In this document: one piece after another, positions 58,833 to 64,000 of the stretch
Layout of the letters: each line of letters begins with the position of its first letter
Numbering within the stretch: position 1 is the stretch's first letter
From: Microbacterium murale
GTDB lineage: Bacteria > Actinomycetota > Actinomycetes > Actinomycetales > Microbacteriaceae
Length of the DNA: 64,000 nt
Direction: 5' to 3'
Assembly (NCBI RefSeq): GCF_014635185.1
Contig: NZ_BMCM01000005.1
Location: 186,001-250,000 of the forward strand
Translations under genes and position numbers: made by a program
The notes under the pieces: generated by a model
The model's input: the letters and a program-made list of their open reading frames with translations, nothing else
The model's database searches: none
Told to the model about the DNA's origin: nothing

Positions 58833-60431
58833 CTACTGAGGTCGCAGAGCTGCGAGCGTCTCCGCGACGACTTCCGAGACGACTCCGGACGCGGCTGCCC
58901 GGTCCTCGGGGACCAACCCGATGCGGGTGCGGCGGTCGAGGACGTCGTCCGCATCGAGCGCCCCCTCCGCGCGCACGGCGAACATCACCTCTGCACGGAT
59001 GACGTCGATGCCCTCCGCCACACGTTCGGCGCCGCCGGAGCCACCGGCTGCGAGAACTGCTGCCGCCTCCGCGCCATAGCGCGAGCGAAGCGTGGCCGAT
59101 GAACGGCGCGAGGCGACGGGATCCGCGATCGGCACCGGCGAGCCGGCGGCTCCGACGAGCGGAAGACGATCGGTACGGCATCCGGGGTCGACGAGTCCCG
59201 CGTGCCGACAGGCGAGGTCGACGGCATCCTTCGCCATGGCGCGATACGTCGTCAGCTTGCCGCCGAGGATGCCGACGGTGCCGTTCGATGACACCTCGAC
59301 GCGATGGCGGCGGGAGATGTCGGCGGTCGAGTCCCCGGAACCGGACTCGACGAGTGGGCGCAGCCCGGCGAAGGAGCCGCGGACGTCGCTGCGACTCAAG
59401 GGGCGCTCCAGCGCCCGCGACAGCGTGGTCAGCAGGAAGTCGATCTCGTCACCGGTGGGAGACGGCACATCCGGAATCGAACCGGGGGCATCGACGTCGG
59501 TGAGGCCGACGATGACGCGTCCGAGCTGGGTGGGCAACGCGAACACGTAACGGCTGATCGATCCGGGGTGCGGCACGGCGAGTGCGGCCGTGGGATTGCC
59601 CAGCGCCGCCGCATCGAGGACGATGTGCGTTCCCCTGCTGGGTCGGAGGCGGATGTCGGGGTCGAGCTGACCGGCCCACACACCAGCGGCGTTCACGACG
59701 GCACGGGCGCGCACGCGTATCGAGCCGCCGCCGAGCCCGTCCTCCAATGTCGCACCGTCTGCGCCGACATCCTTCACGCGCGTGCGGGTGAGGATCGTCG
59801 CACCGTGAGCGGCCGCAGTCCGGGCGATCGCCGTGACGAGCCGCGCGTCGTCGACCAACTGACCGTCGGTGCTGACCATCCCGCCGCGCAGGCCCGTCCG
59901 ACTCACGGCGGGAAACATGGCGACGGCCTCCGCCACGGACGCTCGATGCGGACGAGGCAGAACGGCACCGGGCGTCCCTGCGATGCGGCGGAGGCCGTCG
60001 CCGAGCCAGAAGCCGATGCTCCCGATCGTGCGCTGTGTGAACGAGACGCCCTCCACGAAGGGAAGCAGCTGCGGCAGCGGGCGGATGAGATGCGGTGCGA
60101 TGCGCGTCATGAGCAGGTGGCGCTCGACCGCGCTCTCGCGGGCGACCGCCAGATCACCGGAGGCGAGGTATCGCAGTCCGCCGTGCACCAGCTTCGAGCT
60201 CCAGCGACTCGTCCCGAAGGCGAGATCGTGCGCCTCGGCGAGAACCACGGAGAGTCCGCGGCTCGCGGCATCCAGTGCCACCCCCGCACCGGTCACGCCA
60301 CCGCCGATCACCAGCAGGTCGACCTCACGCCCCTCTGCGAGCGTCTCCAGCTCACGCGTCCGTCTGGCCGCGTTGAGCATCGACGATGCTCTGATGCCGG
60401 TCGCTGCGGCCGCATTCGATCTGGACGTCAT
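58833..60431 (-). CDS. glpD: Glycerol-3-phosphate dehydrogenase, FAD-dependent
   Basis: A 532-residue flavoenzyme. The dinucleotide motif is DLLVIGGGVTGAGVALDA, and GTSRWSSKLVHGGLRYLA is the GlpD signature; further conserved segments include VNAAGVWAG and ILGGKLTTYRAMA. It oxidises glycerol-3-phosphate to DHAP. It overlaps the TetR gene (ATGA), so the two are coupled. The product DHAP would be on path to the neighbour's alkyl-DHAP-like enzyme if that assignment holds. Confidence 0.94.
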   Translation of the reverse strand: MTSRSNAAAATGIRASSMLNAARRTRELETLAEGREVDLLVIGGGVTGAGVALDAASRGLSVVLAEAHDLAFGTSRWSSKLVHGGLRYLASGDLAVARESAVERHLLMTRIAPHLIRPLPQLLPFVEGVSFTQRTIGSIGFWLGDGLRRIAGTPGAVLPRPHRASVAEAVAMFPAVSRTGLRGGMVSTDGQLVDDARLVTAIARTAAAHGATILTRTRVKDVGADGATLEDGLGGGSIRVRARAVVNAAGVWAGQLDPDIRLRPSRGTHIVLDAAALGNPTAALAVPHPGSISRYVFALPTQLGRVIVGLTDVDAPGSIPDVPSPTGDEIDFLLTTLSRALERPLSRSDVRGSFAGLRPLVESGSGDSTADISRRHRVEVSSNGTVGILGGKLTTYRAMAKDAVDLACRHAGLVDPGCRTDRLPLVGAAGSPVPIADPVASRRSSATLRSRYGAEAAAVLAAGGSGGAERVAEGIDVIRAEVMFAVRAEGALDADDVLDRRTRIGLVPEDRAAASGVVSEVVAETLAALRPQ

Positions 60432-61039
60432 GGCAGCAGGTACCCCTCCACGGCGCGAGTGAGCTCACGATGCCATTCCGATGCGCCGATCAGCGAGGAG
60501 ACAGCCTGGCGGGAGAGGACCGCGGACTGCACGATGAGCAGCAGCATGACCGACATGTCGCCCGCAGCGCCCTCTCGAACCGTGCCGCCGGCCTGTCCGC
60601 GTGCGATCGCGACTTCGAGCCAGCGCAGCATGGCACGCTGACTCGAGCCGATCCGCTCGAGGCTGTACTGCGTGAACACCTCCGGTTCCCGATCCAGCAG
60701 CCGCCCGAAGACACGATCGTCGCGGAAGAGTTCGGAGAAGCGCATCACTTCTGCGACGAGCTCGTGGCCGGTGCGCACATCGGGCGCCATCCTCGCGATG
60801 ATCGACACCGTCTGCCTGAGCAGCGCGGCGCGCACCACCTCATCGGTCCCCGGCCAGCGGCGGTAGATCGTCGGCCTGCTCACTCGCGCGTCGCGGGCGA
60901 GTTCCGCGATCGTGAATCCTCCGGTTCCGCGCGACGCGATGAGATCGGATGCGACGTCGAGCAGGCGCGCGTCGACCTCATCCCAGACGGGGAGTGCGGA
61001 TGCGCTCGATGACACCGTGAGTGCTTGACGATCTTCCAT
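60428..61039 (-). CDS. TetR-family regulator of the glpD/AGPS-like cluster
   Basis: A 203-residue protein. The helix-turn-helix is FTIAELARDARVSRPTIYRR, and the C-terminal ligand domain is helical. The start codon is 20 bases from the divergent flavoenzyme start, and a 21-bp near-palindrome lies in that gap. It probably represses both directions. The effector may be a lipid or alcohol, but this is inference. Confidence 0.9.
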   Translation of the reverse strand: MEDRQALTVSSSASALPVWDEVDARLLDVASDLIASRGTGGFTIAELARDARVSRPTIYRRWPGTDEVVRAALLRQTVSIIARMAPDVRTGHELVAEVMRFSELFRDDRVFGRLLDREPEVFTQYSLERIGSSQRAMLRWLEVAIARGQAGGTVREGAAGDMSVMLLLIVQSAVLSRQAVSSLIGASEWHRELTRAVEGYLLP

Positions 61040-61040
61040 G

Positions 61041-61061
61041 ATGTGTCACACTGTAACGCAT
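61041..61061. promoter_or_regulatory. 21-bp near-palindromic operator between divergent starts
   Basis: ATGTGTCACACTGTAACGCAT is palindromic around C61051 except for two symmetric position pairs. It fills the whole gap between the TetR start (61039) and the flavoenzyme start (61060), so a bound TetR would cover both start sites. TACAGT on the minus strand (61056-61051) may be a -10 box. Confidence 0.6.
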
Positions 61062-62688
61062 GACGACGGAGACTACACCGGCATCGACGACGAGCTGGAA
61101 CGGCTGGGGCGACCCTGGCTTGGCAAAGGACCTTCCCCTGGCCGTGCGCGCTCTGCTTCCCACGATCCTCGGGCGCATCCGCCGCCCGGAACCGCCCGTG
61201 GCGCTCTCCGACGTGATCGCGGCAGCGTCCTCGCTCACCGAGGAGGATCGCGCGGACCTCGTCGCGATCGTCGGTGCGGATGCCGTCCGCACGGATGACG
61301 GGAGCCGCATCCGGCATTCAGGGGGCCGGTCCACGCCCGACCTCCTGCGCCTTCGTGCTGCTCATCAGGCCGCCCCCGACGCAGTCGTCTCGCCACGCGA
61401 TCACGATGAGGTCGTCCGGGTGCTCGGTTTCGCGTCAGAGCACGACATCGCCGTCATCCCCTTCGGCGGCGGGACGAGCGTCGTCGGCGCTCTCGCGCCG
61501 CAACGCGGTGCGCACCGGACTGTCATATCCCTGGACGTGCGGCGCCTGAGCGGCCTGCTGCACTTCGACGAGGTCAGTGGCGAAGCCCGCTTCCTCGCGG
61601 GGACCACGGGGCCGGAGGCCGAGCGTCTGCTCACGGCACACGGGTTCGAACTCGGACATTTCCCGCAGAGCTTCCTCTACGCGACCCTCGGCGGCTTCGC
61701 CTCGGCCCGCTCCTCCGGCCAGAACTCCGCCGGCAACGGTCGCTTCGACGCGATGGTCACGGCGCTGCGCGTCGCGACGCCAACCGGCGAGGTCGTACTC
61801 GGCGGAGCGCCCGGATCCGCGGCCGGCCCCGATCTGATGCGCCTCTTCCTCGGAGCGGAGGGCACGCTCGGCGTCATCACCGAGTTGAGCGTGCGCGTGC
61901 ATCCGCTGCCCGAAGCGCGTCGATACGAAGGGTGGACGTTCCCCGATTTCGAGACCGGTGCCGATGCGCTCCGCCGCGTCGCGCAACTCGGCACAGGGCC
62001 GACCGTCATCCGACTCTCGGATGAGGCCGAGACGGGTATCGGGCTCGCGCAGCACGGACGCGTGGGCAAGGCGCTGGCGAAGGGATGCAGCGCGATCACC
62101 GTGTTCGAGGGCGATGCTGCGGTCGTCGCCGAGCGACAGGAGCTCACCGCACGGGTGCTCGCCGCGGCCGGCGGACGCTCGACCGGTCCGGCGCCCGCCG
62201 AGGAATGGGCTCGAGGGCGGTTCGGCGCCCCCTACCTGCGCGACGCGCTGCTCGATCATGGCGCCTTCTGCGAGACGCTGGAGACCGCGACGACCTGGGC
62301 CGATCTCCCCCGGCTGAAGACCGCCGTCACCGACGCCATCCGCTCCGGCTTCGCCGAGCAGAACTCGAAGTCACTGATCCTGTGCCACATCTCCCACATC
62401 TATCCCACGGGCGCCGCGCTGTACTTCACGATCATCGGCAACCTGCGCGGCGACGTACTCGAAGAATGGAGCCTGATCAAGGCGGGCGTGAACGACGCGA
62501 TCCTCGCCAACGGCGGCACGATCAGCCACCATCATGGCGTCGGGCGGGATCACGCGCCGTGGTTCGCACGTGAGGTCGGCGAGGGCGGCATCCGCATCCT
62601 GCGCGCGGTGAAGGACCAGCTCGACCCGTCAGGGATCATGAACCCCGGCGCACTGCTGCCTGCATCGGCTTCCGCCGAGAGGAGCTGA
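61060..62688 (+). CDS. FAD-binding oxidase resembling alkyl-DHAP synthase
   Basis: A 542-residue VAO/PCMH flavoenzyme. FAD-binding segments are AVIPFGGGTSVVGAL and FASARSSGQNSAGNGRFD. The C-terminal ISHHHGVGRDHAPWF carries the His cluster of alkyldihydroxyacetone-phosphate synthases. Rv3107c (AgpS) of M. tuberculosis is the closest recognised type. The enzyme would swap an acyl for an alkyl ether in DHAP. A related FAD-linked oxidase (D-lactate type) is the alternative. It starts an operon with a diacylglycerol kinase and a GMC enzyme. Confidence 0.88.
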   Translation: MTTETTPASTTSWNGWGDPGLAKDLPLAVRALLPTILGRIRRPEPPVALSDVIAAASSLTEEDRADLVAIVGADAVRTDDGSRIRHSGGRSTPDLLRLRAAHQAAPDAVVSPRDHDEVVRVLGFASEHDIAVIPFGGGTSVVGALAPQRGAHRTVISLDVRRLSGLLHFDEVSGEARFLAGTTGPEAERLLTAHGFELGHFPQSFLYATLGGFASARSSGQNSAGNGRFDAMVTALRVATPTGEVVLGGAPGSAAGPDLMRLFLGAEGTLGVITELSVRVHPLPEARRYEGWTFPDFETGADALRRVAQLGTGPTVIRLSDEAETGIGLAQHGRVGKALAKGCSAITVFEGDAAVVAERQELTARVLAAAGGRSTGPAPAEEWARGRFGAPYLRDALLDHGAFCETLETATTWADLPRLKTAVTDAIRSGFAEQNSKSLILCHISHIYPTGAALYFTIIGNLRGDVLEEWSLIKAGVNDAILANGGTISHHHGVGRDHAPWFAREVGEGGIRILRAVKDQLDPSGIMNPGALLPASASAERS

Positions 62689-62689
62689 C

Positions 62690-63634
62690 GTGCGGCACGT
62701 CTTCGTTCTCGCCAACCCCGAAGCGGGACGCGGAAAGGGCGCCAAGGCCCGCGATGCCGCGATCGCCCGACTAAGGGGCTTCGATCTCAATCTGTCGGTG
62801 CGTACCGGTTCGTCGATCGCCGAGACTCGACAGTTCGCGATCGAGGCGGTCGCAGCGCGGCCGGACGTTCTCGTCATCGTCGGCGGCGACGGCACACTCG
62901 CGATCGTGCTCGATGTGCTCGTCGGCTCCGGGATCCCCATCGTGCTGGTGCCGGCCGGCACAGGCAATGACCTCGCGCGCGCACTCGGCATCCCCTTCGG
63001 ATCGGCCGAGTCCGCAGCCGCAGCAGTCTCAGCCGCCGCGCATGGAGTGCCCAGAGCCCTCGACGTCGGAGAGGCGGTCTGCCCGGACGGCACCGCGCTG
63101 TTCCTCACCGTCGCCGCCCTCGGCTTCGACGCCAAGGTCAGCGAACGCACCAACACGCTCCGCTGGCCGCGCGGGCGTGCCCGCTACTACCTGGCGATGA
63201 TCATCGAGCTGATCCGCCTGAAACCCATGACGTTCACTCTGCGCGCCGACGGCATCGAGAGCCCGCTCTCGCACGGCACGCTGATCGCCGTCGGCAACAC
63301 CCGCAGTTACGGTGGCGGGATGCCCGTCTGTCCGCAGGCAGACCCGCACGACGGCGTGTTCGATGTCGTCCACATCGCGCCAGTGGGCAGGGCGAAGCTG
63401 ATCCGTCTCCTCCCGCGGCTGCTGCGCGGCACGCACGTGCAGCTGCCAGAGGTGACGACGCTGCGTGCCACCGAAATCGAAGTGGCCGCACCCGGACTCG
63501 TCGTGTATGCCGACGGCGAGCGCGTCGGCTCAGAGAGCGTACGCATCCGTACGCTTCCAGGAGCTCTGCAGATCCTGCTGCCCTCGATCGACGGCGATCA
63601 TGCGGACTTCGATATGAGAAGGGCGCATCGATGA
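62690..63634 (+). CDS. Diacylglycerol kinase-type lipid kinase
   Basis: A 314-residue DAGK/YegS enzyme. The nucleotide motif is IVGGDGTLAIVLDV and PAGTGNDLARALGIP; the beta-rich C-terminal domain has NTRSYGGGMPVCP and DGVFDVVHI. It phosphorylates diacylglycerol or a related lipid alcohol. GTG 62690 has GAGAGGAG upstream; it starts one base after the preceding stop. Coupled to the following GMC gene (ATGA). Confidence 0.93.
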   Translation: MRHVFVLANPEAGRGKGAKARDAAIARLRGFDLNLSVRTGSSIAETRQFAIEAVAARPDVLVIVGGDGTLAIVLDVLVGSGIPIVLVPAGTGNDLARALGIPFGSAESAAAAVSAAAHGVPRALDVGEAVCPDGTALFLTVAALGFDAKVSERTNTLRWPRGRARYYLAMIIELIRLKPMTFTLRADGIESPLSHGTLIAVGNTRSYGGGMPVCPQADPHDGVFDVVHIAPVGRAKLIRLLPRLLRGTHVQLPEVTTLRATEIEVAAPGLVVYADGERVGSESVRIRTLPGALQILLPSIDGDHADFDMRRAHR

Positions 63635-64000
63635 ACGGACGGTTCGATCACGACGTGGTAGTCATCGGCTCCGGTTTCGGGGGTTCGGTGGCGGCCCTGC
63701 GCTCGGTCGAGAAGGGGTATCGGGTGCACGTGTACGAAGCGGGGCGCCGCTTCGCCGACGACGACTTCGCGAAGACGTCGTGGGACGTCAGGCGCTATCT
63801 GTGGGCTCCCGCGCTCGGATGCTTCGGCGTGCAGCGCATCCACAAGCTGCCGCACGTCGTGATCCTCGCCGGGGCGGGCGTCGGCGGCGGATCGCTCAAC
63901 TACGCCAACACGCTCTACCGGCCTGGCGAGGAGTTCTTCGTCGATGGGCACTGGCCCGGCGGGTTCGATTGGGAGCAGGAACTCGATCCGCACTATGCGA
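63631..64000 (+). CDS. GMC-type oxidoreductase, 3'-truncated
   Basis: ATG 63631 overlaps the kinase stop; the frame is open to the window end (123 residues). The opening FDHDVVVIGSGFGGSVAAL is an FAD Rossmann loop, and GAGVGGGSLNYANTLYRP with LWAPALGCFGVQRIH is typical of the cholesterol-oxidase-like GMC group in actinobacteria. The substrate may be a sterol or another alcohol; the catalytic C-terminal His lies outside the window. Confidence 0.88.
   Translation, partial: MNGRFDHDVVVIGSGFGGSVAALRSVEKGYRVHVYEAGRRFADDDFAKTSWDVRRYLWAPALGCFGVQRIHKLPHVVILAGAGVGGGSLNYANTLYRPGEEFFVDGHWPGGFDWEQELDPHYA

Follow-up and report, generated by a model that had tools for sequence, protein, structure and literature searches.

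A recurrent GlpD/AGPS gene pair in actinobacteria and its possible role in the breakdown or salvage of glycerol ether lipids

The window analysed here, a 64,000-nucleotide stretch of contig NZ_BMCM01000005.1 from the 3.9 Mb genome of Microbacterium murale, ends in a compact cluster in which genes for a glycerol-3-phosphate dehydrogenase (GlpD) and for a relative of alkyl-dihydroxyacetone-phosphate synthase (AGPS) are accompanied by a TetR regulator, a diacylglycerol kinase (DAGK) and an oxidoreductase of the GMC family. Does such a cluster make ether lipids, or does it take them apart? An earlier note on this DNA had left synthesis and degradation open; the evidence gathered since leans towards breakdown or salvage but does not decide the matter. 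We tentatively propose that the cluster acts on sn-1-substituted glycerol phosphates and is more likely to cleave or salvage ether lipids than to make them, its substrate and direction being what we infer. This direction is favoured by comparison with a second AGPS set, found in other Microbacteriaceae: the counterparts here of its reductase, acyltransferase and alcohol-forming fatty acyl-CoA reductase (FAR) are GlpD, itself an oxidising enzyme, a kinase and an alcohol oxidase. GlpD is the partner of AGPS at 80 of 80 and 20 of 20 loci of the present type, compared with 0 of 14 loci of the FAR type, where it was sought nearby with tblastn (simple gene calling had missed genes in L023). Features of the cluster, in window coordinates, are:

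58833..60431, minus strand: glpD paralogue, 532 aa (gene call, domain search, residues, tree)
60428..61039, minus strand: tetR, 203 aa, probable local regulator (gene call, TetR_N domain)
61025..61059, no strand: conserved element spanning both divergent starts (core TGTGTCACACTGTAACG, 61042-61058), a probable TetR operator with putative overlapping promoters (alignment)
61060..62688, plus strand: AGPS-like flavoenzyme, 542 aa (gene call, domains, structure-database match, alignment, tree)
62690..63634, plus strand: YegS/DgkB-type lipid kinase (DAGK), 314 aa, GTG start (gene call, domains)
63631..64000 (window edge), plus strand: start of a GMC oxidoreductase gene, cholesterol-oxidase-like (domains; complete copy at L007 9631-11259)

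Four-base overlaps join glpD to tetR and DAGK to GMC, a single base separates AGPS from DAGK, and the divergent tetR and AGPS starts lie 20 bases apart. The GMC gene crosses the window edge and stops 1259 bases beyond it, giving a full length of 542 aa. Gene calls and domain search bear out the initial description of five genes around a divergent TetR gene, with tight overlaps and an HHHGVGR motif in the flavoenzyme. The kinase carries DAGK_cat and YegS_C domains with GGDGT and matches TIGR00147 at 127.7 bits, above the cut-off of 118.65. The top NCBIfam match of the GMC protein is cholesterol oxidase (NF058674), at 518.5 bits against an equivalog cut-off of 850.

A divergent pair conserved across the class

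All loci were collected through AGPS, and a GlpD of the cluster type without AGPS could therefore be missed. For the named loci we took the best 80 of at least 570 confirmed AGPS matches, which are hence close relatives; a further 20 were hand-picked to span families of the class, from the 150 genomes with an AGPS match below 1e-117. Among the 80, the order GlpD-TetR-AGPS-DAGK recurs on identical strands at 79, in Microbacterium, Mycobacterium, Streptomyces and others, with GlpD and DAGK at all 80 and TetR at 79, the only gene not found at L112. This recurrence of gene order is more than chance. At the 20 class loci GlpD was found at 20, TetR at 16, DAGK at ten and GMC at one (one locus, L198, ends soon after AGPS), so the constant unit is the divergent GlpD/AGPS pair, to which DAGK and GMC are additions. 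We looked for a third constant partner at the loci without DAGK; none recurred among ten neighbour proteins except Thy1 at two loci, probably ordinary synteny. One class locus without DAGK has an LCAT-like acyltransferase downstream of AGPS (L197 10993-12336).

The arrangement, whose recurrence in Microbacteriaceae the earlier note had proposed to check, is thus present there and well beyond, and the GMC gene is a lineage-specific addition, found at 25 of 27 Microbacteriaceae/Arthrobacter-type loci (it is absent from L043, and L056 ends too early) versus none of the 53 others. In our sample of 394 class genomes, 208 have an AGPS match at 1e-60, and the 150 below 1e-117 score like loci with an adjacent GlpD. 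Closer to home the cluster type is uncommon, occurring in five of 150 genomes of the family, and patchy within the genus (4/11 other genomes).

Other genomes share the cluster, and its four-gene order is already in print as Rv2249c-Rv2252. A table in PMC4564863 (like the other papers cited, used here as far as the excerpts consulted go) gives Rv2249c (glpD1), Rv2250c (regulator), Rv2251 (flavoprotein) and Rv2252 (diacylglycerol kinase), matching the window in all four kinds of gene and in their order, and in one of its columns the BCG counterparts of all four shift together, by +2.11 to +2.28. The match to M. tuberculosis rests on this published list because that species is not among the 80 loci. 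Mycobacterium and Mycolicibacterium loci in our set encode an AGPS 54-59% identical to that of the window, in the same order and on the same strands (L112 without a TetR match), and they differ from the window in that no GMC gene was found alongside. The table labels Rv2251 simply as a flavoprotein, and no assigned function for this type of flavoenzyme was found in the excerpts of open-licence literature consulted. Rv2251 and Rv2252 are reported to rise in early resuscitation (PMC6689984), and overexpression of glpD1 to leave the persister level unaffected (PMC4866775).

The flavoenzyme and its dedicated GlpD

The AGPS-like protein has the VAO-type architecture, with FAD_binding_4 (PF01565, 100.9 bits) and FAD-oxidase_C (PF02913, 153 bits) domains. 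Its top PDB matches are the AGPS of Dictyostelium (296.7 bits) and of guinea pig (243.1 bits), followed at a distance by D-lactate dehydrogenase (107.1 bits). Residues R352, R447 and Y508 of the Dictyostelium enzyme are reported as important for catalysis (PMC3509576). They correspond to R318, R394 and Y455 in the window (chain numbering offset 3), each invariant in the alignment across all 105 cluster proteins and all 14 proteins of the FAR type. The HHH triplet (H490-H492), which we take to have a role in AGPS, is invariant in the same two sets. The D-lactate dehydrogenase 8jdb has G-E-H in place of HHH and gaps opposite R394 and Y455; its residue opposite R318 differs between two alignments, being Glu in one and Arg in the other.

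A different picture is seen at position 203, which is Gln in all 105 cluster proteins and Asp in the 14 FAR-type proteins and in both the Dictyostelium and guinea-pig enzymes (GHxPD), although the Asp of this motif is not established as AGPS-defining. In total, 19 positions are near-fixed differently in cluster-type and FAR-type AGPS. These 105-row counts and a first quick tree include one divergent or mis-framed paralogue (L006), which was removed from a careful tree of 30 rows. In the latter, the cluster type forms a clade of its own (100/99), FAR-type and eukaryotic AGPS together make up a second (98/95), and the cluster type lies inside the AGPS side, apart from D-lactate dehydrogenase (100/100). 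Forcing eukaryotic and cluster AGPS together was weakly rejected (approximately unbiased test, p 0.038), a value to be read with caution because the grouping was named after the quick tree and the guinea-pig branch is long.

The flavoenzyme, by alignment and tree, is a true AGPS relative and an AGPS-family subfamily, probably not an orthologue of the characterised enzymes, since it forms its own clade sister to the FAR-type and eukaryotic proteins. The initial description as AGPS-like holds, with the catalytic residues now aligned and found conserved. Identity with D-lactate or glycolate oxidases, the case that would have spoken against that description, was rejected on the PDB scores, the missing counterparts of R394, Y455 and HHH in 8jdb, and the tree placement. 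Eukaryotic AGPS (Dictyostelium 2uuu, guinea pig 4bby) shares its domains, the two Arg, the Tyr and HHH with the window protein, and the N-terminal WNGWGD is as in Dictyostelium; the window type differs in its sister-clade position, in Gln rather than Asp at 203, and in its partner, GlpD rather than FAR and dihydroxyacetone phosphate (DHAP) acyltransferase.

GlpD itself has DAO and DAO_C domains and scores under the NCBIfam GlpD cut-off (256.8 vs 360), as does the other GlpD of the genome (287.6). In an alignment of 102 rows, three short rows having been removed from 105, the positions matching E. coli R54, Y55, H233, R317, R332 and K354, which we take to be substrate-binding, are kept in all 102 cluster GlpDs, or in 101 with one unread. 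The cluster GlpDs form one clade in a quick tree (SH-aLRT 100), separate from 18 other GlpDs, and ten positions were listed as distinguishing them, of which S43R, E57A, V64A, K230R and T270L (E. coli numbers) each hold in at least 99 of 102. E57A, V64A and T270L are shifts to smaller or more hydrophobic residues. As judged from these alignments, the cluster GlpD appears still to handle a glycerol phosphate, perhaps a different one. A second GlpD was present in all 12 genomes searched, so that glycerol use need not rest on the cluster enzyme. The initial assignment as a GlpD stands; that it simply makes DHAP may be too simple a view, because the enzyme is a dedicated paralogue.

Making or breaking ether lipids

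The second AGPS type, about 37-40% identical to that of the window, occurs in 39 other genomes of the family, together with FAR in 39 of 39 (in three of them the AGPS match spans only the first two thirds). FAR is present in 40 of 150 family genomes, the 40th being G107, where it lies near a contig end with no AGPS match, and in 76 of 394 class genomes. The fullest set, at L030 2952-10807 (genome G076), comprises FAR-HAD, a short-chain dehydrogenase/reductase (SDR), a PF01553 acyltransferase, an AGPS grouping with eukaryotic AGPS and a BLUF gene, together with a protein of 264 aa that only just matches fatty-acid desaturases (23 bits against a cut-off of 22.7). By domain search, FAR, SDR and acyltransferase were seen together only in L030, FAR and SDR in L029, and FAR in L039. 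We regard this type of set as a probable ether-lipid gene set of other Microbacteriaceae. Subtercola, an aerobic genus of the family, is reported to contain dimethyl acetals, which are plasmalogen markers, as is Agreia, and Frondihabitans none (PMC5945732). The AGPS family, at 35-39% identity to the window protein, is what the window cluster shares with sets such as that of L030, which has FAR-HAD, SDR, acyltransferase and desaturase-like protein instead of GlpD, DAGK and GMC. Bacterial AGPS homologues also stand in operons in Myxococcus (MXAN_1676-1674 and elb), likened here by published description rather than by sequence; the partners there are FAR/GNPAT-like and NAD-dependent proteins, those in the window GlpD, TetR, DAGK and GMC (PMC9131029). 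L035 and L036 (G064 and G093) show a third AGPS-like type, shorter at about 490 aa, with the first His of HHH altered and no GlpD found in the stretch examined; genome G027 has a shorter type only and no FAR.

We hypothesize the following route. DAGK, where present, would phosphorylate alkylglycerol or alkylacylglycerol and so feed the module. The dedicated GlpD would then oxidise the C2 hydroxyl of 1-O-alkyl-glycerol 3-phosphate, perhaps also of 1-acyl-glycerol 3-phosphate, to a DHAP-level ketone and pass the electrons to the respiratory chain; quinone-linked GlpD favours oxidation. AGPS, whose reaction is reversible, would swap the group at C1 by way of an adduct at flavin N5, chiefly so as to cleave the ether, converting alkyl-DHAP and a fatty acid (or water) into acyl-DHAP (or DHAP) and a fatty alcohol. 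The GMC oxidase, where present, would oxidise the alcohol set free, and TetR would repress both arms from a single shared operator. The wider claim that actinobacteria, mycobacteria included, possess a dedicated oxidative pathway for cleaving glycerol ether lipids, built from a lipid kinase, a GlpD paralogue, a reversed AGPS subfamily and, in some lineages, an alcohol oxidase, is possible but rather doubtful.

Several observations weigh against cleavage or salvage. FAR accompanies cluster AGPS in 32 of 150 class genomes, much as it occurs in 44 of the other 244 (Fisher p 0.43), even if the remaining 118 of the 150, with no match to FAR, speak for the proposal. The two are independent in this sample and therefore separate systems, not alternatives. 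The idea that the two AGPS systems strictly exclude each other, which would fit the family, where a FAR match at 1e-40 occurs in none of the five genomes with cluster-type AGPS (other FAR families were not sought), is rejected by the 32 class genomes holding both. The window genome has five PF07993 matches above the Pfam cut-off, up to 62.5 bits, a domain also present in 14 of 14 control genomes, and alcohol-forming enzymes other than that FAR were not sought. No GMC gene was found at the 53 loci outside the Microbacteriaceae/Arthrobacter type, most of which belong to Mycobacterium or Mycolicibacterium and others to Rhodococcus, Kitasatospora or Streptomyces (the contigs of some are short), nor DAGK at ten of the 20 class loci, L198, cut by a contig edge, among the ten; neither gene is therefore essential. 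Relatives of the GMC protein, at 50-69% identity, are present in five genomes of the family that have no AGPS match (G010, G053, G074, G123 and G137), and GMC is therefore an independent partner. Of the GlpD changes, which are read from sequence alone, S43R and K230R do not share the shift to smaller or more hydrophobic residues. Rv2252 is cited as a diacylglycerol kinase for phospholipid synthesis (PMC3229680), for which no ether lipid is required, and no demonstration of AGPS running in reverse was found in the excerpts of literature consulted.

Synthesis is a serious rival, although we consider it somewhat unlikely. In this case GlpD would give DHAP or, which helps the idea, acyl-DHAP from 1-acyl-glycerol 3-phosphate, replacing the missing DHAP acyltransferase; AGPS would add a fatty alcohol, and a general reductase and DAGK would route the product to phospholipid. 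The retention of every AGPS residue tested as catalytic suits such a role, as does the presence of FAR beside cluster AGPS in the class genomes just mentioned, and the Myxococcus AGPS MXAN_1676 is reported to make a minor contribution to ether lipids (PMC9131029). However, the fixed partner is an oxidising enzyme, the tree does not place the cluster AGPS nearest to the eukaryotic enzyme, and neither a FAR at 1e-40 nor a FAR-type AGPS was matched in the window genome. Domain search of the five genes also agrees with the earlier note in finding no acyl-DHAP source (acyl-DHAP acyltransferase) and no alkyl-DHAP reductase among them, genome-wide candidates not having been examined; with FAR likewise unmatched, the complete ether-lipid biosynthesis considered there as one option is not borne out. 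Moreover, we know of no glycerol ether lipids described from mycobacteria, though these carry the cluster.

A changed reaction is improbable. The subfamily would still bind a DHAP-like phosphate and use the flavin adduct, joining or oxidising something other than a fatty alcohol, with the Asp-to-Gln replacement marking the change. Invariant Gln203, the near-fixed differences from FAR-type AGPS and the separate clade speak for it, but the residues reported important for catalysis are unchanged, and no role of the Asp was found in the excerpts of literature consulted. Plain glycerolipid housekeeping, in which the work of GlpD and DAGK is to recycle glycerol phosphate and diacylglycerol while the AGPS-like protein is a bystander, draws on the report of Rv2252 as a diacylglycerol kinase (PMC3229680) and is the least probable, AGPS rather than DAGK being the constant partner of GlpD at the class loci (all of which were found through AGPS).

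If the pair breaks ether lipids, it would provide a second enzymatic mechanism for cleaving glycerol ethers, pterin-independent and the mirror image of the FAR-AGPS set, and a possible route by which soil and host-associated actinobacteria use glycerol ethers. The class is generally taken to have ester lipids, and would need a fresh lipid survey should the pair make ether lipids instead. Breakdown would be new because alkylglycerol monooxygenase (AGMO) is called the only known alkylglycerol-cleaving enzyme in reviews (PMC3617469, PMC7911779); AGMO would share the outcome, a broken glycerol ether bond, and differs as a pterin-dependent monooxygenase. Either way, telling two AGPS types apart adds force to a published warning about ElbD homologues, namely that a homologue in a genome is no proof of ether lipids (PMC11868695).

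Control region and neighbouring genes

Both arms of the cluster start at one conserved element, in keeping with the initial suggestion that they stand under one TetR, which probably binds there. Upstream of AGPS, ACTGTAACG is found at 74 of 105 loci, and at 72 of 73 aligned loci an ATG or GTG follows one base after it (the frame was not checked locus by locus), suggesting that the AGPS leader is very short or absent. We searched nine genomes for the operator core with up to three mismatches and a reversed control. The cluster copy was the best or tied match in all nine, with 0-1 mismatches in six, 2 in one and 3 in two (G154 and G156). Other operator-like matches total 14, each with 2-3 mismatches; they do not exceed the reversed control in seven genomes but are above it in G142 (3 vs 0) and G151 (2 vs 0), where the match at C5:96286 has 2 mismatches. 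TetR looks like a local regulator, most clearly in close relatives, because the cluster copy is best or tied and the other matches exceed the control in these two genomes only. A single operator site per genome is likely in close relatives and may not extend to G154 and G156, whose own cluster copies are degenerate to the extent given above. A wider TetR regulon was rejected, the extra matches in the nine genomes all having 2-3 mismatches and being mostly at or below the control.

What follows the GMC gene, a point raised at the outset, is a group on the opposite strand, past the window and convergent with GMC (L007 11307-14290, minus strand), encoding a UbiH-like monooxygenase, a methyltransferase and a type III polyketide synthase-like protein. 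These genes are probably an operon separate from the cluster, because the same genes also lie near it in L043.

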